From positions 62,001-126,000 of the forward strand of contig CASELE010000002.1 of NCBI GenBank assembly GCA_949288735.1: a stretch of 64,000 nucleotides of DNA, written 5' to 3'. A model generated the notes under the pieces. The model saw nothing but the letters and a program-made list of their open reading frames with translations. It was not told where the DNA came from and ran no database searches. Below are positions 55,821 to 64,000 of the stretch, in pieces (position 1 is the stretch's first letter; the number at the start of each line of letters is the position of its first letter). Both the position numbers and the translations under genes were made by a program. The DNA comes from an uncultured Alistipes sp. Its GTDB lineage: Bacteria > Bacteroidota > Bacteroidia > Bacteroidales > Rikenellaceae.

Positions 55821-56039
55821 ATGAAAAAGTTCTTTACGTTTGCTTTCGTTGCAGCAGCGGCCCTTTCGCTGGCCAGCTGCGGTGGCAACGCCAACACGAA
55901 GAAGGCCGCTGCGGAGTCCGAGGCTGCCGCAACGAAGACCGAGGAGGTTTGCTGCGAGCAGGCCGACAGCTGCGCTGCCGCTTGCGAGGAGGCTCCCTGC
56001 GAGGAGGCTGCCCAGCCCGCCGAGGCTCAGACGAAGTAA
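55821..56039 (+). CDS. 72-aa Cys/Glu/Ala-rich mini-lipoprotein
   Basis: Signal MKKFFTFAFVAAAALSLASC with lipobox LASC at residues 17-20, then a mature part of 52 residues rich in Glu, Ala and Lys. Besides Cys20 there are five cysteines at 44, 45, 51, 55 and 60 (CCEQADSCAAACEEAPC). They could bind metal or form disulfides; nothing proves either. A longer start at 55770 would overlap the promoter. Own promoter and terminator. I recognise no family. Confidence 0.8.
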   Translation: MKKFFTFAFVAAAALSLASCGGNANTKKAAAESEAAATKTEEVCCEQADSCAAACEEAPCEEAAQPAEAQTK

Positions 56040-56589: not shown

Positions 56590-57066
56590 ACCGCCGCATC
56601 CGCGCAGGTATCCTATATTAACTATATTTATATAGGTATCGGTCCCGATACCTCTCCGCCGCTGTTCCGTGCGGGCCCTCTTCCGATGCGCGGGGTGTTC
56701 CCCGATGCGGAGACGGGACCGACGTACGGCTAAAATGGTCGTCCGGAGTTTTCGGACCGTGAGGGAGAATGCAATTTTTTTCGTGCCCTCCGCGGGCCGT
56801 CTCCGTGGCCGGAAGAGACAGCGGCGACTCCTTCGAAATATCGCGAACAGGGGTCGTAATAACAATCATACCAAATAATTGCCGTTCTGAAAGCGCCGTG
56901 TCTGCCAGCGGCCGGATCCGGCCGGAGCGGCCTTCCGTCCGGCGGAACGGAACAGGCGGCGAGGCGGTGCTCCGAAAAAAAATCCGGCGTTTTTTTGCTT
57001 TTTTCCTTGCGCCTCCTTACATTTGTTAGCAATTATTCTACTCACACAACTAAAAAGTGTTTCGTT
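56590..57066 (+). other. 477-base intergenic region upstream of tlpA
   Basis: No supported gene. It contains an AT-rich palindromic segment, with CCTATAT (56612-56618) pairing with ATATAGG (56630-56636), directly joined to GGTATCGG / CCGATACC (56635-56642 and 56645-56652). Next come GC-rich stretches with poly-T runs and finally the tlpA promoter. Composition alternates sharply, unlike nearby coding DNA. It may hold a terminator for the exonuclease and a leader or small RNA. Confidence 0.55.
56994..57025 (+). promoter_or_regulatory. Promoter of the tlpA-DUF6029-omp28 locus
   Basis: TTTG at 56994-56997 and TACATTTG at 57018-57025, 20 bases apart, preceded by T tracts. ATG of tlpA is 42 bases downstream. 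Confidence 0.75.
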
Positions 57067-57561
57067 ATGATGAAAAAACTCTTCCTGACCCTTGCCGCTC
57101 TGACGGGCCTCGTCATGGTGGCTACGGCGCAGAATCGGATGCCTAATGTCAAGATCGAGAACGAGAAAGGCGAACTGATCCAGACCGCGTCGCTCATCGA
57201 CGGCAAGACGCCCATGATCATCTCGTTCTGGTCCACGACGTGCAAGCCCTGCATCCGCGAGCTGAACGCGATCAACGATCAGCTGGTGGATTGGCTCGAT
57301 CAGGCCGATTTCCGTGTAGTGGCCGTCTCGATCGACGACAGCCGCTCGGCATCGAAGGCGAAGGCCATGGCCAGCGGCTACGGCTGGTCGGATTTCACGG
57401 TTCTCTACGACAAGAACCAGGACTTCAAGCGTGCGCTGAACGTGAACCTCGTGCCGCAGGTCTTCGTGGTGGACGGCAACGGCAACGTAGTCTATTCGCA
57501 CACGGGCTATAACCCGGGCGGCGAGGCAGAGCTGCTCAAGCAGGTGCTCAAGCTTCAGTAA
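57067..57561 (+). CDS. Secreted TlpA-type thioredoxin-like protein
   Basis: 164 aa. Signal peptide to about residue 22 (MMKKLFLTLAALTGLVMVAT), then a thioredoxin fold with the redox pair C59-x-x-C62 in FWSTTCKPCIREL and the cis-Pro in VNLVPQVFVVDGNGNVV. Probably a periplasmic disulfide reductase. The start could be the second ATG one codon on. First gene of the locus: DUF6029 follows after 21 bases and three CxxC lipoproteins after that, so a reducing partner role for those is a plausible inference. Confidence 0.9.
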   Translation: MMKKLFLTLAALTGLVMVATAQNRMPNVKIENEKGELIQTASLIDGKTPMIISFWSTTCKPCIRELNAINDQLVDWLDQADFRVVAVSIDDSRSASKAKAMASGYGWSDFTVLYDKNQDFKRALNVNLVPQVFVVDGNGNVVYSHTGYNPGGEAELLKQVLKLQ

Positions 57562-57582
57562 TCCTAAGGAGACGACCGACAG

Positions 57583-59205
57583 ATGAAATCTGCAAAACTG
57601 CTCACCCTCGCGGCGTGCACGCTCTTCGCGGGCGCCGCTTTCGCCCAGGGCGACGAGGCCGGCGACAAGAAGGGATTCCTCACCGGCAGCTTCGAGACCA
57701 ACACGACCTACTATGTGGCCGACGGCGAAGTGCCCAACTACAACGTCCCCAACGACCGCTTCGGATCGAACAACTATCTGAAGGTGGACTATATCCGTGA
57801 CAAGTTCACGGCCGGTCTGCAGCTCGAGAGCTACCTCCCGCTGCTCTATGGCTATCCGACCGATTTCGAGGGCACGGCCATCACGAACATCTACGCTTCG
57901 TGGGTCGACGACTCCTTCTCGATTACGGCGGGTTCGTTCTACGATCAGTTCGGCAGCGGTCTGCTCTTCCGTGCCTGGGAGGACCGCGCGCTGGGTCTGA
58001 ACAATGCGCTGATGGGTGCCCGCTTCACCTACAACTTCAAGAACTACCTGGCCTTCAAGGCAATCTGGGGTACGCCCCGCCTCGGCATGACCTACGATAC
58101 GGGCGTGCAGTACCGCGGTGCCGACCTGAGCCTCAACCTCTCGGAGATGTGGGGCGCGCAGAATGCCACGCTGCTGGTCGAGGGTTCGATCCTGAACCAC
58201 TACGAGGCGCTTCCGCAGTCGCTGCGCAACAGCGACATGGCCCCCAGCTCGACGGGCTTCTCGACCCGTGTGAACTACGAGGTCGGCGGCTTCATGGCCA
58301 AGGGCGAGTGGGTGGACAACGGTACGAACTACTACCAGGACGCCACCTCGGAGAGCGGCTTCAAGGGACGTCGCGGTAACGCGCAGCTCGTCGAGCTGGG
58401 CTACAGCGGCCACGGTCTGGGCCTCTTCGTCTCGGCCCGCCGTCTGGAGTGGATGTATTCGTGGGGCACGCGCAACAGCACGAGCACGACGAACGTCTTC
58501 AACTACATTCCCGCCATGACGCTGCAGTACACCTACCTGCTGACCAACCTCCATCCCTACACGCCGATGGCCGGCGACAACGGTCTGGGCGTTCCGGGCG
58601 AGCTCGGCGGCCAGGTGGATGTCTACTACAACGTGAAGCGCGGTACGGCGCTGGGCGGCCGCCGCGGCATGAAACTGCACGCCAACTTCTCGACCTACTA
58701 CGGCCTGCAGGGGAGCGGCAGCATCTTCAAGACGCGCCACATGCTCTTCCGCGACTTCAGCGCCGATATCGAGAAGCAGTGGACGCGCAACTTCAAGATG
58801 AACCTGCTCTACTCGATGCAGGAGCGCAACACCACCTACGGTACGAGCGACAATACGGAGCTCTCGCACATCATCGTGGGCGACTTCCTCTACAAGTTCA
58901 CGCCGATGTTCTCGCTGCGCCTCGAACTGCAGTACCTGACCTCGAAGGAGGGCGAGAAGGATTGGATGGCCGGCCTGCTCGAGGCGTCGTTCGCCCCGAA
59001 GTGGAGCGTCTTCGTGAGCGACATGTACAACCACGGCAGCTCGAAGCTCCACTACTACAACGCCGGCGTCAGCTTCGCCCATTCGCGTACGCGTCTGCAG
59101 CTCAGCTACGGCCGCAACCGCGAGGGTTACGTCTGCTCGGGCGGCGTATGCCGTATCCAGCCCGCCTATACGGGTGCCAACTTCGCCATGACCATCTCCT
59201 TCTAA
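57583..59205 (+). CDS. DUF6029 family protein, outer-membrane beta-barrel-like
   Basis: 540 aa. Signal peptide MKSAKLLTLAACTLFAGAAF then AQGDEAG; the mature protein is dense in alternating aromatic strands (SFETNTTYYVADGEVPNYNV, YIRDKFTAGLQLESYLPLLY) and ends in FAMTISF, a C-terminal Phe typical of outer-membrane barrels. I assign it to DUF6029 from its length and its company with TlpA and Omp28; that is recollection, not a search. Function unknown, perhaps a porin or a scaffold. In frame, no Cys pair. Confidence 0.75.
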   Translation: MKSAKLLTLAACTLFAGAAFAQGDEAGDKKGFLTGSFETNTTYYVADGEVPNYNVPNDRFGSNNYLKVDYIRDKFTAGLQLESYLPLLYGYPTDFEGTAITNIYASWVDDSFSITAGSFYDQFGSGLLFRAWEDRALGLNNALMGARFTYNFKNYLAFKAIWGTPRLGMTYDTGVQYRGADLSLNLSEMWGAQNATLLVEGSILNHYEALPQSLRNSDMAPSSTGFSTRVNYEVGGFMAKGEWVDNGTNYYQDATSESGFKGRRGNAQLVELGYSGHGLGLFVSARRLEWMYSWGTRNSTSTTNVFNYIPAMTLQYTYLLTNLHPYTPMAGDNGLGVPGELGGQVDVYYNVKRGTALGGRRGMKLHANFSTYYGLQGSGSIFKTRHMLFRDFSADIEKQWTRNFKMNLLYSMQERNTTYGTSDNTELSHIIVGDFLYKFTPMFSLRLELQYLTSKEGEKDWMAGLLEASFAPKWSVFVSDMYNHGSSKLHYYNAGVSFAHSRTRLQLSYGRNREGYVCSGGVCRIQPAYTGANFAMTISF

Positions 59206-59328
59206 CCGAAGGGGATGCGTCGGCGCGATGCAGTATTTCAGACGCTGCACCGTTATATATATAGAAAACGAAAGCGAGGCGCGCTCCGGAGCGACGCCGC
59301 TACAAACTTGCAATACAACGAAACGAAG
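59206..59328 (+). other. Spacer before the omp28-like genes with a palindrome
   Basis: 123 bases between the DUF6029 gene and the first Omp28-like gene. It holds TATATATATAG near 59255 and a GC inverted repeat (GGCG-CGCTCC-GGAGCG-ACGCC, about 59279-59298). No TAnnTTTG box is present, so the operon may continue through it. Confidence 0.4.
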
Positions 59329-60447
59329 ATGAAAAAGTATCTTATCCTCGCGCTTGCGGCCCTGACGGGCGGTGCATTCGTGGCCTGCAGCGGCAGCGAA
59401 GAGGGTGGCGGCGATCCGTCGACGGCCACCTCCATCACCCTCGCGGTCGACAAGGAGACCATCGAGGCCGACGGCGCCGATGCCGTGCGCTTCACCGTGA
59501 CGACCGATACGGGCGTGGACATTACCGGCATGCAGGGCGTGCGCATCCTGATCCCCGGCGAGCAGGGCGACGCGGACGCCGTCTTCCTCGACGGCATGGA
59601 GTACACGTCGGTGACGAACGGCCCCGTGACCTTCCAGGCCCGCTACAACGGCATGCTCTCCAACAAGGTGACCGTGACGGCACAGAACCGCGGCGAGTAC
59701 GAGAAGTACATGCGCCGTCTGCTCATCGCCGACCTGACGAGCGTGGGCTGCATCAACTGCCCCAACATGACGACGGTGCTCGAGTCGCTCGCCGAGCGCT
59801 ACCCCGACCGTCTGGAGGTGCTGACCTACCATACGGACTACGACGGTAACGTCGACCCCTTCTCGACCGAGCTGCTCAACTCCATCTACAGCGATTTCGG
59901 CATCATGGGCTTCCCCGCCGCAGTGGTCGATTTCCGCATCGGCATCAACGGCGCCAACTCCTCGCGCCTGATGCAGGAGATCGAGGCTTCGCTCTACGAC
60001 TATCCCGCCACCTGCGGCATCAAGCTCTCGTCGAGCTACGACGAAGCCAAGCAGGAGGCTACGGTCGTGGTTACGGTGGCCGGCGCCAACGAGGTGGCCT
60101 CGGAGTACACGCTGGGCTATCTGCTCGTGGCCGACAACATCGAGGCCGTGGGCGGTGCGACCCAGAAGGGCGCCGACGCCAGCTACGTGCACAACGGCGT
60201 GGTGCTGGCGGGTTCGGAATATCTGGGCGACCGTCTCGACGGCGGTCTCCAGGCCGGTGTGGAGCGCGAGCCCGTCACGATCAAGTTCAACGTGGGCGGC
60301 CACATGCAGCCCGAATACTTCGGCGTGGAGGATCTGCGCGTCGTGGCCTACGTGATGGCCAAGAACGACGACAACACCTACTACGTGAACAACGTGGCCA
60401 GCTGCGCCGTCGACGGCGGTTCGGCCGACTACGTGCTCAACGAGTAA
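59329..60447 (+). CDS. Omp28-related outer membrane lipoprotein, copy 1
   Basis: 372 aa from ATG at 59329. Lipobox Cys20 in GGAFVACSGSEEG; a bacterial Ig-like domain (about 35-118, SITLAVDKETIEADGADAVR); a thioredoxin-like domain with C141-x-x-C144 (VGCINCPNM) and a cis-Pro in GIMGFPAAVVD near residue 196; and a C-terminal beta domain ending ADYVLNE. Omp28 of Porphyromonas gingivalis is an outer-membrane antigen of unknown role. The retained CxxC suggests redox or disulfide exchange at the cell surface. Longer start at 59215 rejected for lack of signal peptide. Confidence 0.85.
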   Translation: MKKYLILALAALTGGAFVACSGSEEGGGDPSTATSITLAVDKETIEADGADAVRFTVTTDTGVDITGMQGVRILIPGEQGDADAVFLDGMEYTSVTNGPVTFQARYNGMLSNKVTVTAQNRGEYEKYMRRLLIADLTSVGCINCPNMTTVLESLAERYPDRLEVLTYHTDYDGNVDPFSTELLNSIYSDFGIMGFPAAVVDFRIGINGANSSRLMQEIEASLYDYPATCGIKLSSSYDEAKQEATVVVTVAGANEVASEYTLGYLLVADNIEAVGGATQKGADASYVHNGVVLAGSEYLGDRLDGGLQAGVEREPVTIKFNVGGHMQPEYFGVEDLRVVAYVMAKNDDNTYYVNNVASCAVDGGSADYVLNE

Positions 60448-60472
60448 CGGAAAGCTGAAAACCTGAAGGACC

Positions 60473-61603
60473 ATGAAACGTATTCTCAACAGTTTCGTTC
60501 TCTTCGCCCTGGCCGCAGGCTTCGCGGCCTGCTCGGGCTCCTCGGATTCGCCCGCCCCGTCGGGCGTGGTGACGATTTCGGCCGACAAGACCGAGATCCT
60601 GGGCAACGGCGCCGACCGCGCGCAGTTCACGGTGATGAACGGCGACGTGGACATCACGAACGACGCCTATACGCGCATCATGCTCGTCGAGCGCAACGGC
60701 GAGACGGTCAACGAGCGCCAGCAGTCGCCCATCTTCGGTACGCGCGAGGCGGGCACCTATGTCTTCGAGGCGCGCTATACGGGTTCGAACCCGGCTCTCG
60801 TCTCGCAGAACCGCGTGACGATCACGGCCACCGAGGCCGATCGTCCGGAGGAGGTCTTCTACCGCCGCATCCTGGGCCAGTACTTCACCTCGACGGGCTG
60901 CCACAACTGCCCGCAGATGATGAACACCATCCATCAGCTCGAGTCGCAGCGTCCGGAACTGGCGGAGCGTCTGGTGATCGCCTCGTTCCATACGAACATG
61001 TCGCCCTTCACCGACCCGATGCTCATCTCGGAGACCCTCTCCTACATGAACGACGTCTTCATGACGCAGGGGCTGCCGAACTTCTACCTCGACGTGGATC
61101 CCGCCATGAGCTGCTACAACACGCTGGCCTACCAGACCACGGTGGACAACCTGGAGCGGACGCTCGCGGATTATCCCGCGGCCTGCGGCGTGAAGCTGAC
61201 GTCGACCTATGACGAGGCGTCGCGCCACGGCAAGGTCGACGTGACGGTGAAGGCCTCGTTCGCCAACGAGTACCGCCTGCTCGCCTTCCTCGTCGAGGAC
61301 GGCATCGAGGGCACACCCGGCACCGCCTACGAGCAGCAGGGCGCCAACGGCACCTACATCCACGAGAACGTGGTGCGCCACTGCTTCGCCAGCTCGCTGG
61401 TGGGCGAGCGCCTCGGCATGATCGAGGCCGACGGCGAGGCTTCGCTCTCGCTCGAGTTCGACGTGAACTCCGCCTGGAAGGCCGAGAACATGCGCGTGGT
61501 GGTCTGCGTGCTCGAACCCGCCGAGGGCGGTTCGTTCCGCGGCAACAACGCCGCCACGACCGAGGGCCTGAACGATACGGTCGACTACGCCTACAACGAA
61601 TAA
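60473..61603 (+). CDS. Omp28-related outer membrane lipoprotein, copy 2
   Basis: 376 aa. Lipobox Cys20 in AAGFAACSGSSDS; Ig-like domain (about 32-120); a segment EEVFYRRILGQYFTSTGC leading to C143-x-x-C146 (STGCHNCPQMM); cis-Pro in GLPNFYLDV; C-terminal beta domain ending DYAYNE. Same architecture as copy 1, 25 bases downstream of it and 23 bases before copy 3. Paralogues differ enough in residues to bind different partners. Confidence 0.87.
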   Translation: MKRILNSFVLFALAAGFAACSGSSDSPAPSGVVTISADKTEILGNGADRAQFTVMNGDVDITNDAYTRIMLVERNGETVNERQQSPIFGTREAGTYVFEARYTGSNPALVSQNRVTITATEADRPEEVFYRRILGQYFTSTGCHNCPQMMNTIHQLESQRPELAERLVIASFHTNMSPFTDPMLISETLSYMNDVFMTQGLPNFYLDVDPAMSCYNTLAYQTTVDNLERTLADYPAACGVKLTSTYDEASRHGKVDVTVKASFANEYRLLAFLVEDGIEGTPGTAYEQQGANGTYIHENVVRHCFASSLVGERLGMIEADGEASLSLEFDVNSAWKAENMRVVVCVLEPAEGGSFRGNNAATTEGLNDTVDYAYNE

Positions 61604-61626
61604 CAACTAACAACCGTACAACGACT

Positions 61627-62715
61627 ATGAACCTGAAGCATATCATCCGCAACCTCGCCCTGCTCGCCCTGCCTCTCGCGGTGGCGACGGCCTGCGAGGG
61701 CAGCAGCAGCGGCGACACCCCCGAAGGCGAGGCCTCGCTCCTGCTCGAGGCGAGCCGCACCACGATCATGGCCAACGGCTCCGACGAGGTCACCTTCAAG
61801 GTACAGAACAGCAGCAAGGTCAACGTCTCGACGCGCGCGACCATCACGATGACCGATCCTTCGGGCGCCCAGTCGCGCCTGCAGGGGCTCCGCTTCTCGA
61901 CCGAGATTCCGGGCACCTACTCGTTCGTCGCCTCGCTCGACGGCGAGGTGTCGAATACGGTCGAGGTGTCGGTTACGGGCCTCGTCGAGGAGATCTTCTA
62001 CCGCCGTGTCTGCATGATGGAGATCACGAGCGTGAAGTGCTCGTTCTGCCCGCAGGCGGCGGAGGCGATCAAGGAGATGAAGCGCAACCGTCCGGACCGC
62101 ATCGTCTCGATGGCCTTCCACGGCGCCGGCATGGGCGAGGATCCGATGATCACGCCCGCGTCGACGGCCCTCGAGTCGCTCTTCCCCGATGCCTCGGGCG
62201 GCTATCCCTTCGTCGTCACCGACCTGCGCGCATACTCGTCGGGTACGCTGACGTCGCAGTGGTCGCAGTGGTACAACGACTCGCGCCAGCTCTATTCGGC
62301 CACGTGCGGCATCAAGCTCTCGTCGGTCTATGACGAGGCCTCGAACAGCCTGAAGATCACCACGGGCCTGAAGACCAACGCGGGCGGCAAGTACGCCATG
62401 GCGGTCTACGTGCTCGAGAACGGCCTCCTCTTCCCCGACTATCCGCAGAGCGGTGTCGACAACGGCGAGGGCTACGTGCACAACGAGGTGGTGCGGGCCA
62501 TGCTCTCGGCGTCGCCGCTGGGCGATTCGCTGGGCACGCTCGAGGCCGACGGCGAGGCCACGAAGGAGTGGACGGTCGCCCTGGACGAGGGCTGGAAGCT
62601 CGAGAACCTGGTCGTGGTGGCCTATGCGACCGACGGCATGAACTACATCAACAACGTGGTGGAGTGCCCGGCCGACGGCGGCTCGGTGGACTACGAGTAC
62701 AACACGGAGGAGTAG
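61627..62715 (+). CDS. Omp28-related outer membrane lipoprotein, copy 3
   Basis: 362 aa. Lipobox Cys23 in PLAVATACEGSSS; Ig-like domain (about 36-117); EEIFYRRVCMMEITSVKC leads to C138-x-x-C141 (KCSFCPQAA); cis-Pro in GGYPFVVTD; C-terminal beta domain ending SVDYEYNTEE. An extra Cys129 lies in FYRRVCM, absent from copies 1 and 2. Third in the tandem array, followed by a hairpin. Confidence 0.86.
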   Translation: MNLKHIIRNLALLALPLAVATACEGSSSGDTPEGEASLLLEASRTTIMANGSDEVTFKVQNSSKVNVSTRATITMTDPSGAQSRLQGLRFSTEIPGTYSFVASLDGEVSNTVEVSVTGLVEEIFYRRVCMMEITSVKCSFCPQAAEAIKEMKRNRPDRIVSMAFHGAGMGEDPMITPASTALESLFPDASGGYPFVVTDLRAYSSGTLTSQWSQWYNDSRQLYSATCGIKLSSVYDEASNSLKITTGLKTNAGGKYAMAVYVLENGLLFPDYPQSGVDNGEGYVHNEVVRAMLSASPLGDSLGTLEADGEATKEWTVALDEGWKLENLVVVAYATDGMNYINNVVECPADGGSVDYEYNTEE

Positions 62716-62722
62716 AGCGTCG

Positions 62723-62754
62723 GCCGGCGTGCGGCCTCCGGGCCGCATGCCGGC
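62723..62754 (+). terminator. 14-bp hairpin with UCCG loop after copy 3
   Basis: Arms 62723-62736 and 62741-62754 pair with one G-U and a UCCG tetraloop, 8 bases past the stop of copy 3. No T tract. It could limit read-through into the next lipoprotein gene. Confidence 0.65.
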
Positions 62755-62830
62755 GGGCGGTCATCCCGATAAACACAAACCAAACCAAACCAACTAACTT
62801 TCTTTTTACACTCTTAACCAATTGTACGCT

Positions 62831-64000
62831 ATGAAAAGCTTTTTCAAGTGGCTTCCGGTCCTCGCGGCGTGCGCCGCGCTGACCGCGTCGTGCTCGAAGG
62901 ACGATCCTCAGCCCGGTCCGGGCGGTGAGGATGAGAAGGAGTACCTTACCGAGGCGAACGCCCTGACGGCCGAGGGTGCCAACATCAAACTCGACCTGAC
63001 GGACTACACGACCTTCGAGTGGACCATCGTCCCCAACTCGGAGTGCCTCTCGTACCGTTGCGAGATCATGATGGCCGACCGTTTCGAAAACGACCTCTGG
63101 GAGCAGCAGAAGGAGCGTCCCGATCTCACCGCCACGGACTATGCCAAGGAGCGCATGTTCGCCACCGACGGTTCGGGCGCCGGCACGTGGAACGGCGAGC
63201 GCGCCTTCTCGTCGAGCGAGACCATCTTCCAGCAGGCCGTCCTCTTCCCCGACACGGAGTACTACATCATGGTGTGGGGCTGTCTGACGCCCGACGGTGA
63301 GAACCCCTCGGAGTACACGCAGCTGCTCGTCCGCACGGCCGATCCCGGCGAACTGGTGGGCAGCCCCCGCGTCCAGGTCGAGGGTGTGGTGAACTACCGT
63401 GCCTCGCAGGGTGTCCTCATCCCGAACGAGGATGCCGCCTACTTCAACATGATGACGCTGCCCGGCGCCCACGTGCGCGAGTTCCTCGAGGTCTTCAGCG
63501 AGGAGAAGCTCTGCAACGTGATCAGCTCGTTCGCCGGCTCGCCCATCTCGATCGAGAACTGCACCGTCGACCCCGATTTCGGCAACGTCCTCACCTATCG
63601 TGACCAGGCGCTGAACTGGGGCTTCGATGCCGACTCCAGCAACGAGATCGCGACGGTCGGCGTGGCCCGCGACGTGAACATGAAGATGTATCCCGTGCCC
63701 GCCATCGCCTACTACAAGCTCAAGGAGAAGGATCCCAATGCGGTTCCCCCCTCGTACGAGTACACCTTCGGCGACATCTCGGCCTATGCCGTGCGGTTCC
63801 GTCTGGAGTTCGACCCCGCAACGACGGCCAACGTCTACTACAGCCTCCAGCCCAACACGGCGGGCGTGCCCGTCAACGCCGCAGACCTTATCCAGAACGG
63901 CGGCTGGGTCGTAGGTCCCGACACCTTCGATCAGTTCCAGTACATCTCCCCGGGCGTGCACAACTACATGTACGTATCGGCGCGTAACTTCCAGGCCGAC
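62831..64000 (+). CDS. Lipoprotein of unknown function, 3' end cut by window
   Basis: At least 390 aa with no stop before the window end. Lipobox in ALTASCSKDDPQ after MKSFFKWLPVLAACAALTAS; a spacer rich in Gly, Pro, Asp and Glu; then a beta-rich region (EANALTAEGANIKLDLTDYT, TTFEWTIVPNSECLSYRCEI) that reads like fibronectin-type or Ig-like modules with PDTEYYIMVWG. No CxxC in a thioredoxin context. It lies 115 bases after the Omp28-like array, behind a hairpin and a CAAAC-repeat leader, and may be a further surface component of the same locus. Confidence 0.78.
   Translation, partial: MKSFFKWLPVLAACAALTASCSKDDPQPGPGGEDEKEYLTEANALTAEGANIKLDLTDYTTFEWTIVPNSECLSYRCEIMMADRFENDLWEQQKERPDLTATDYAKERMFATDGSGAGTWNGERAFSSSETIFQQAVLFPDTEYYIMVWGCLTPDGENPSEYTQLLVRTADPGELVGSPRVQVEGVVNYRASQGVLIPNEDAAYFNMMTLPGAHVREFLEVFSEEKLCNVISSFAGSPISIENCTVDPDFGNVLTYRDQALNWGFDADSSNEIATVGVARDVNMKMYPVPAIAYYKLKEKDPNAVPPSYEYTFGDISAYAVRFRLEFDPATTANVYYSLQPNTAGVPVNAADLIQNGGWVVGPDTFDQFQYISPGVHNYMYVSARNFQAD

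Follow-up and report, generated by a model that had tools for sequence, protein, structure and literature searches.

Why would a bacterium set a soluble thioredoxin, an outer-membrane barrel and three cysteine-bearing lipoproteins side by side behind one promoter, and do these proteins work together? The question is raised by the last part of a 64,000-nucleotide stretch of DNA (hereafter the window) from an uncultured Alistipes sp., which covers positions 62001-126000 of contig CASELE010000002.1 (C2 of genome G000) in a 1.66 Mb Rikenellaceae genome that is 99.6% complete. A sequence-only reading had proposed that the TlpA, DUF6029 and Omp28-type proteins encoded there form one thiol-redox system. 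This proposal has been tested separately for protein fold, gene order and cysteine conservation, and none of the three refutes it. Our results support the view that the cluster is one conserved thiol-redox module. Furthermore, the side-by-side occurrence of thiol proteins across the phylum suggests an uncharacterised pathway that takes reducing power to the outer membrane or cell surface. We lean, if only slightly, towards the more specific idea that the cluster is one dedicated module for envelope thiol-disulfide exchange, probably in the reducing direction, with electrons passing from DsbD to TlpA, on to the outer membrane and then to Omp28 proteins or their clients.

A gene cluster that recurs across Bacteroidota

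The genes for TlpA, DUF6029 and the three Omp28-type lipoproteins form a tandem array, separated in that order by 21, 123, 25 and 23 bp (Table 1). Their placement behind a promoter was read correctly from the letters, given that the coordinates, the Pfam matches and a TTTG-N20-TACATTTG site all agree. Five such sites were found in the window, compared with 0.10 expected from shuffles.

To place the cluster in a broader context, an alignment of DUF6029 was scanned against named genomes, and the 80 best-scoring loci were taken with up to 10 kb of flanking sequence. These loci span Bacteroidales, Chitinophagales, Flavobacteriales and Cytophagales; they are weighted towards Rikenellaceae, and percentages derived from them are not phylogenetically balanced. 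Of 79 testable cases, 63 have TlpA encoded directly upstream of DUF6029 and in the same orientation, at a median gap of 10 bp, and each of these 63 adjacent TlpAs has a CxxC motif, which is CKPC in 51. Directly downstream of DUF6029, 67 of 81 cases have an Omp28 gene, separated by a median of 18 bp, and 81 of 82 loci contain at least one Omp28 gene. Because the window genome has just four Omp28 genes, the chance of such adjacency is well below 1%. Three of the four are in this cluster, and the order of genes is found repeatedly in Bacteroidota, which exceeds what chance would produce. DUF6029 is present in 165 of 295 genomes of the order and in 36 of 61 within the genus, which indicates that the cassette, though widespread, can be done without. 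The neighbour "family" counted most often in the loci consisted of antisense open reading frames (ORFs) on the cassette genes and was discarded. The conserved neighbours included no cytochrome genes.

The TlpA protein encoded in the window carries a signal peptide, a Redoxin/AhpC-TSA domain and a WxxxCxxC motif. Its active site, C59-K-P-C62 (57241-57252), is numbered as the sequence-only reading had it, and E65 and cis-Pro130 accompany it. An alignment of 38 cassette TlpAs has W55, C59, C62, E65 and P130 among its invariant positions. The protein is ResA-like, including the Glu located three residues past the second Cys. It scores below every NCBIfam equivalog cut-off and so cannot be identified as either ResA or CcmG proper. 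Its best relative in the PDB is 2m72 (E 3.8e-61), which is probably PG_2175 of Porphyromonas gingivalis, and ResA comes next. That species may carry the same cassette, judging only from the literature locus tags PG2173-PG2175, of which PG2173 is listed just as an Omp28 lipoprotein (PMC9722745) and PG_2174 as an uncharacterised vesicle protein (PMC4335976). The PG2173 listing is also the only literature we found that joins Omp28 and thioredoxin in a Bacteroid context, and none was found that joins Omp28 and selenoprotein.

A probable electron supply from DsbD

A reductase at the cell envelope needs a source of electrons, and gene linkage points to DsbD. In three genomes read of one family, TlpA, DUF6029, Omp28 and DsbD are encoded in this order on a single strand, spaced by tens of bases, and a fourth genome sampled from the family has DsbD about 1 kb downstream of DUF6029. 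A DsbD gene also precedes the cassette in one clade of Alistipes loci and in Cryptobacteroides/Bacteroidales loci (L080, plus a fragment in L076). The operonic DsbD of the one lineage would supply the electron source that is otherwise missing from the cluster. In the window's own genome, DsbD is unlinked to the cassette and complete (G000:C11; 680 aa; DsbD_N, DsbD_TM and Thioredoxin_7 domains). VKOR was not found in that genome, and DsbB was not searched for. The linkage to DsbD, the presence of DsbD in the window genome, the failure to find VKOR and the ResA-like character of TlpA together favour reduction as the direction of flow.

The proposed scheme resembles the known pathways in which DsbD of the inner membrane feeds a periplasmic thioredoxin-fold reductase, as in DsbD-TlpA/ResA/CcmG and DsbD-DsbC, and it shares with them a ResA-type active site. 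However, the known pathways end in the periplasm, where they serve cytochrome maturation or disulfide repair. The cassette adds a cysteine-bearing outer-membrane barrel and outer-membrane lipoproteins.

Thioredoxin-fold lipoproteins and a barrel with a cysteine pair

All three lipoproteins match PF11551 (Omp28) well above its curated cut-off of 34.9 bits, with scores of 73.3, 87.7 and 86.6 bits (E 2.8e-20, 1e-24 and 2.3e-24) for lipoproteins 1, 2 and 3, respectively. Their scores of 60.5, 48.5 and 70.3 bits do not reach the 150-bit cut-off of NF033782, and so by sequence they are relatives rather than members of that narrow lipoprotein subfamily. They also match the NCBIfam model "Omp28-related selenoprotein" weakly, in keeping with a redox-active position for members of that family. 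In an alignment of 62 Omp28 proteins, invariance is confined to the lipobox Cys, both Cys residues of the CxxC motif (C143 and C146) and the proline aligned at the cis-Pro position (P202). The cysteine numbering given earlier for the three proteins was accurate. Among the Omp28 ORFs of the sampled loci, 105 of 106 have the CxxC motif.

An AlphaFold2 (AF2) model of the middle lipoprotein, built from 62 sequences (pLDDT 90), has immunoglobulin (Ig)-like, thioredoxin and Omp28 parts. The Ig-like and thioredoxin-like domains of the sequence-only reading correspond to a beta-sandwich at residues 33-120 and a thioredoxin-like unit at 133-233, respectively. The model places the CxxC motif (143-146) between a strand (133-139) and a helix (146-159), as in the thioredoxin fold. 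Its best fold match in the PDB is HBP35 (5y1a; E 2.5e-12). A sequence profile likewise aligns HBP35 over the thioredoxin and Omp28 domains (E 1.9e-25), with its CGYC motif and Pro in register.

Given these relatives, the description of Omp28 as a protein of unknown role is incomplete. HBP35 (P. gingivalis PG0616) is a surface protein that reduces insulin via C48 and C51 (PMC2907840), and its export by the type IX secretion system (T9SS) is the subject of PMC3120885. The cassette Omp28 proteins share its thioredoxin-Omp28 domain arrangement, and by this likeness they may have disulfide reductase or oxidase activity. However, HBP35 is T9SS-exported and anchored to lipopolysaccharide (LPS) whereas the cassette proteins are lipoproteins, it is without their N-terminal Ig-like domain (the alignment begins after the Ig part), and it has been studied alone as a hemin binder outside any TlpA-DUF6029 cassette. 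A second relative, to which the cassette proteins are likened by its Omp28-related label, is the surface protein 00502 of Paraprevotella clara, which recruits trypsin and promotes its degradation (PMC9477747). The loss of trypsin was explained in that work as oligomer-driven autolysis. The words "disulfide" and "thioredoxin" are absent from its text, and a thiol mechanism, in which disulfides of trypsin are reduced, was apparently not considered there.

We find it very unlikely that the cluster serves merely for ligand capture or adhesion. DUF6029 would then be a porin for heme, metal or polymer, the Omp28 proteins would be binders that use the thioredoxin fold as a scaffold, and TlpA would be a general reductase that is incidentally co-transcribed. 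HBP35 does bind hemin (PMC2907840), 00502 binds trypsin at the surface (PMC9477747), and DUF6029 resembles polysaccharide porins (PMC9603273). However, a mere scaffold would not keep its CxxC and cis-Pro residues as the only invariants besides the lipobox Cys, nor would it recruit TlpA and DsbD.

The barrel-like nature noted earlier for DUF6029 holds. PF19494 covers the protein over its full length (profile positions 1-538 of 538; 571 bits; E 2.7e-171), and an AF2 model from 67 sequences (pLDDT 92.3) has about 24 strands. What the sequence-only reading missed is a CxGGxC cysteine pair, which is new here. The motif is present in 82 of 82 DUF6029 homologues, C518, G520, G521 and C523 are invariant columns of the alignment, and the two cysteines are the only ones in the window protein outside its signal peptide. 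This invariant pair is the strongest sign, at the level of sequence, that the barrel shares in thiol chemistry. Long (mean 14) and short (mean 4) connections follow each other in turn along the modelled chain (one-sided p 0.0005). The termini and short turns of such barrels are usually periplasmic, and by this rule the hairpin with the Cys pair, which joins the last two strands (23 and 24), is predicted to be extracellular. The hairpin could also be folded into the lumen of the modelled barrel.

Foldseek returned only generic large barrels of 24 to 26 strands for this model and none that is close. The top match is the FimD translocation domain (TM ~0.5), and LptD and MtrB are also listed. The literature mention that we found for DUF6029 likens it to Wzi-type polysaccharide porins (PMC9603273). 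A Wzi-like porin of 18 strands was rejected given the ~24 strands of the model and the absence of Wzi from the best 50 PDB matches. Matches of RecA to the DUF6029 profile were set aside as a short, spurious stretch without a full domain. The window DUF6029 shares 57-58% identity with the copies of Phocaeicola coprocola (L054) and of an uncultured member of Bacteroidales (L053), and only ~42-47% with the majority of Alistipes copies. Two DUF6029 genes are present in several genomes of the genus. This pattern of identities and duplicates suggests horizontal transfer or ancient paralogues.

The cassette bears some likeness to LptD/LptE with DsbA/DsbC, which also combines a large barrel, a lipoprotein and thiol enzymes. 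No sequence relation to that system was found, and the cysteines of LptD sit elsewhere and serve its own assembly. The likeness leads to the main rival explanation, namely that the barrel is itself the client. TlpA and the Omp28 proteins would make, break or proof-read the C518-C523 bond during assembly, much as LptD is served by DsbA/DsbC and its lipoprotein LptE, and the job of the mature barrel would be separate, such as polymer or ligand export. The pairing of a 24-strand barrel with a lipoprotein and thiol enzymes follows the LptD/LptE/Dsb logic, the Cys pair is both invariant and hairpin-shaped, and a likeness of DUF6029 to Wzi-type porins has been published (PMC9603273). Even so, we judge such maturation control unlikely. 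Up to three Omp28 proteins with differing CxxC dipeptides seem beyond the needs of one hairpin, and the Cys-pair cargo, together with the exported thioredoxins found beside the cassette (see below), points to chemistry outside the barrel.

Candidate exported partners, neighbouring genes and a possible path to the cell surface

The window genome has neither SprA_N nor Por_Secre_tail domains and thus lacks a T9SS, and Pfam finds no Por_Secre_tail on the cassette proteins of the window. It carries a lipoprotein-only form of the cassette, and a role as T9SS machinery was rejected for the window on these grounds. Across the order, DUF6029 is unrelated to the T9SS, which is present in 147 of 155 genomes with DUF6029 and 131 of 140 without it. 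SprA_N occurs in 278 of the 295 sampled genomes of the order and is lacking in all four sampled Rikenellaceae.

Where lineages do have a T9SS, the cassette is adjoined by a thioredoxin protein that bears a T9SS sorting tail. In loci L106, L123 and L131 this is an Omp28-type protein. In two other loci (L107:7655-9418 and L116:7532-9358), its place upstream of the cassette is occupied by a fusion of a TlpA-type (CGPC) thioredoxin, Big_5 and a T9SS tail. That two distinct redox domains occur at one position, both with this export tail, argues that surface location matters. An acidic stretch after the lipobox Cys resembles the surface-export signals of Bacteroidota. Asp or Glu makes up 32% of positions +2 to +9 in the cassette Omp28 set, compared with 13% elsewhere, and 54 of the 62 proteins have at least two acidic residues after this Cys. 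The three stretches from the window are weaker in acidity (CSGSEEGGG, CSGSSDSP and CEGSSSGD), and these proteins may nonetheless reach the surface.

Sixteen of the loci also encode a T9SS cargo of ~240 aa with an invariant Cys pair. Its sorting tail alone matches Pfam, where no family was found for the N-terminal domain, and the only invariant features among 15 aligned cargos are the FC(x3-7)C Cys pair, the initiator Met and one Gln. The cargo is present in 129 of 155 DUF6029-positive genomes of the order and in 4 of 140 that are DUF6029-negative (Fisher 5e-51). The bias persists when counted by family (59 of 70 versus 1 of 39; 3e-18) and by genome inside 17 mixed families (13 of 24 versus 3 of 32; 3e-4). 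Because DUF6029 does not track the T9SS, this link is not a by-product of that system. Of the 102 genomes in which both were placed, only 31 have the cargo no more than 10 kb from DUF6029, and so the link exceeds mere proximity. PorA, which has a similar size and tail (PMC7712824), was considered as the identity of this protein and rejected, given that a PDB search with the cargo matched T9SS tails only.

Perhaps the barrel holds this cargo rather than exchanging electrons with it. Covalent links through twin-cysteine barrels are already known from Bacteroidota, as in SprF/PorG-GldK/PorK (PMC12635249), where outer-membrane barrels with conserved Cys residues exchange disulfides with a partner. 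By analogy, the CxGGxC pair of DUF6029 might be disulfide-bonded to the FCxGxxC motif of the cargo, or to Omp28, as a tether that anchors the cargo outside, with TlpA, DsbD and Omp28 making and resolving the bond. Such a tether would be an outside counterpart of the SprF/PorG-GldK disulfides. The similarity of the two Cys motifs is consistent with this arrangement, as is a co-occurrence that is very tight although the genes are so seldom close. The SprF/PorG cysteines are in a periplasmic tail and form a mechanical link to the T9SS/gliding track, whereas those of DUF6029 are predicted to be extracellular and the window genome is without a T9SS. However, seven of eight DUF6029-positive, T9SS-lacking genomes have no cargo, and the DUF6029 of the window, which is one such case, keeps its Cys pair. 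A cargo with a T9SS C-terminal domain also already has its own LPS anchor. A tether is decidedly unlikely in our estimation.

Returning to the dedicated exchange module that we favour, electrons would cross the inner membrane via DsbD, encoded elsewhere in the window genome, to periplasmic TlpA. TlpA would then reduce targets at the outer membrane, which might be the CxGGxC hairpin of DUF6029, the Omp28 lipoproteins or both. The thioredoxin domains of Omp28 would hand reducing equivalents to clients at the outer membrane or cell surface, and in T9SS lineages such outward-facing thioredoxins would also come as T9SS cargo. The small Cys-pair cargo would be the best candidate client. Sequence and prediction show the gene order, the conserved cysteines, the folds, the co-occurrence and, in one lineage, an operonic DsbD; the direction of electron flow, a surface location of the window lipoproteins, the part of the barrel as conduit, receiver or client, and the identity of the clients are inferred. 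Several observations weigh against this scheme. An adjacent TlpA is missing from about 20% of DUF6029 loci, so that either the two need not be paired or the TlpA gene is at another site. Linkage of DsbD to the operon, whether inside it or nearby, is limited to about three lineages. The ability of HBP35 to complement an E. coli dsbA mutant (PMC2907840) would also agree with oxidation as its role. That the hairpin faces outwards is predicted from topology in a single-chain model, and the Cys-pair cargo, like the T9SS, is absent from the window genome.

Table 1. Features of the cassette and of associated genes. Positions are those of the window unless a locus (L) is named.
Feature	Position	Strand	Basis or remark
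Bacteroidota-type promoter, TTTG-N20-TACATTTG	56994..57025	+	upstream of tlpA
TlpA/ResA-type thioredoxin, 164 aa	57067..57561	+	Redoxin/AhpC-TSA match
DUF6029 outer-membrane beta-barrel, 540 aa, ~24 predicted strands	57583..59205	+	PF19494; AF2
Cys hairpin C518-S-G-G-V-C523 of DUF6029	59134..59151	+	alignment; loop-length topology
Omp28-type lipoprotein 1, CINC (C141/C144); Ig, thioredoxin and Omp28 domains	59329..60447	+	PF11551; alignment
Omp28-type lipoprotein 2, CHNC (C143/C146), cis-Pro202	60473..61603	+	PF11551; AF2; HBP35 fold match
Omp28-type lipoprotein 3, CSFC (C138/C141)	61627..62715	+	PF11551; alignment
Large lipoprotein, CSKDD after lipobox	62831..64000, on past the window to L005:9515	+	without Pfam family
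Cys-pair T9SS cargo	L131:6645-7373; L106:4656-5387; L108:12516-13238; L121:1646-2389; others	-; -; +; -	

Downstream of the Omp28 genes, the large lipoprotein is a probable member of the operon. The form with three Omp28 genes and this lipoprotein is found in the window, L053, P. coprocola (L054), L056 and Tidjanibacter (L095), and in each of the other four loci the large lipoprotein likewise comes after the Omp28 genes. Beyond the window, it is followed on the same strand by an fn3 lipoprotein and an S41-protease lipoprotein. The large flanking lipoproteins are not obvious thiol clients, having as conserved Cys only that of the lipobox and one scattered position. Directly 3' of these genes (L005:13181-16894) are an OmpR-type response regulator and a histidine kinase, and then three tandem PepSY_like (PF11396) proteins. 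About 1 kb 5' of the cassette, a small Cys-rich and Glu-rich lipoprotein (55821-56039, + strand) has the pattern CC..C...C....C near its C-terminus, and no convincing homologue of it was found among the fetched loci.

To our knowledge, no dedicated disulfide-reducing pathway of Gram-negative bacteria reaches the outer membrane or cell surface. A bolder extension of the module would make DUF6029 itself a thiol conduit through the outer membrane, from DsbD-fed TlpA to surface thioredoxins (Omp28 or T9SS-exported) that reduce extracellular disulfides. We consider this unlikely, but if true, many Bacteroidota would reduce extracellular proteins, among them their own Cys-pair cargo and perhaps those of the host, and the barrel would be the disulfide counterpart of the MtrCAB electron conduit.

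If the cassette is a reducing pathway to the outer membrane or surface, then DUF6029 and Omp28 would gain functions, and there would be a reason for HBP35 being a surface thioredoxin. The loss of trypsin, which is held by disulfides, to an Omp28-related protein of a gut commensal might likewise have a chemical reason. By analogy, a CxxC-dependent effect of 00502 on trypsin would be a direct prediction, which hinges on the sequence of 00502. Finally, the cassette would add a redox layer to the biology of the T9SS, where disulfide-linked outer-membrane proteins have recently been described.

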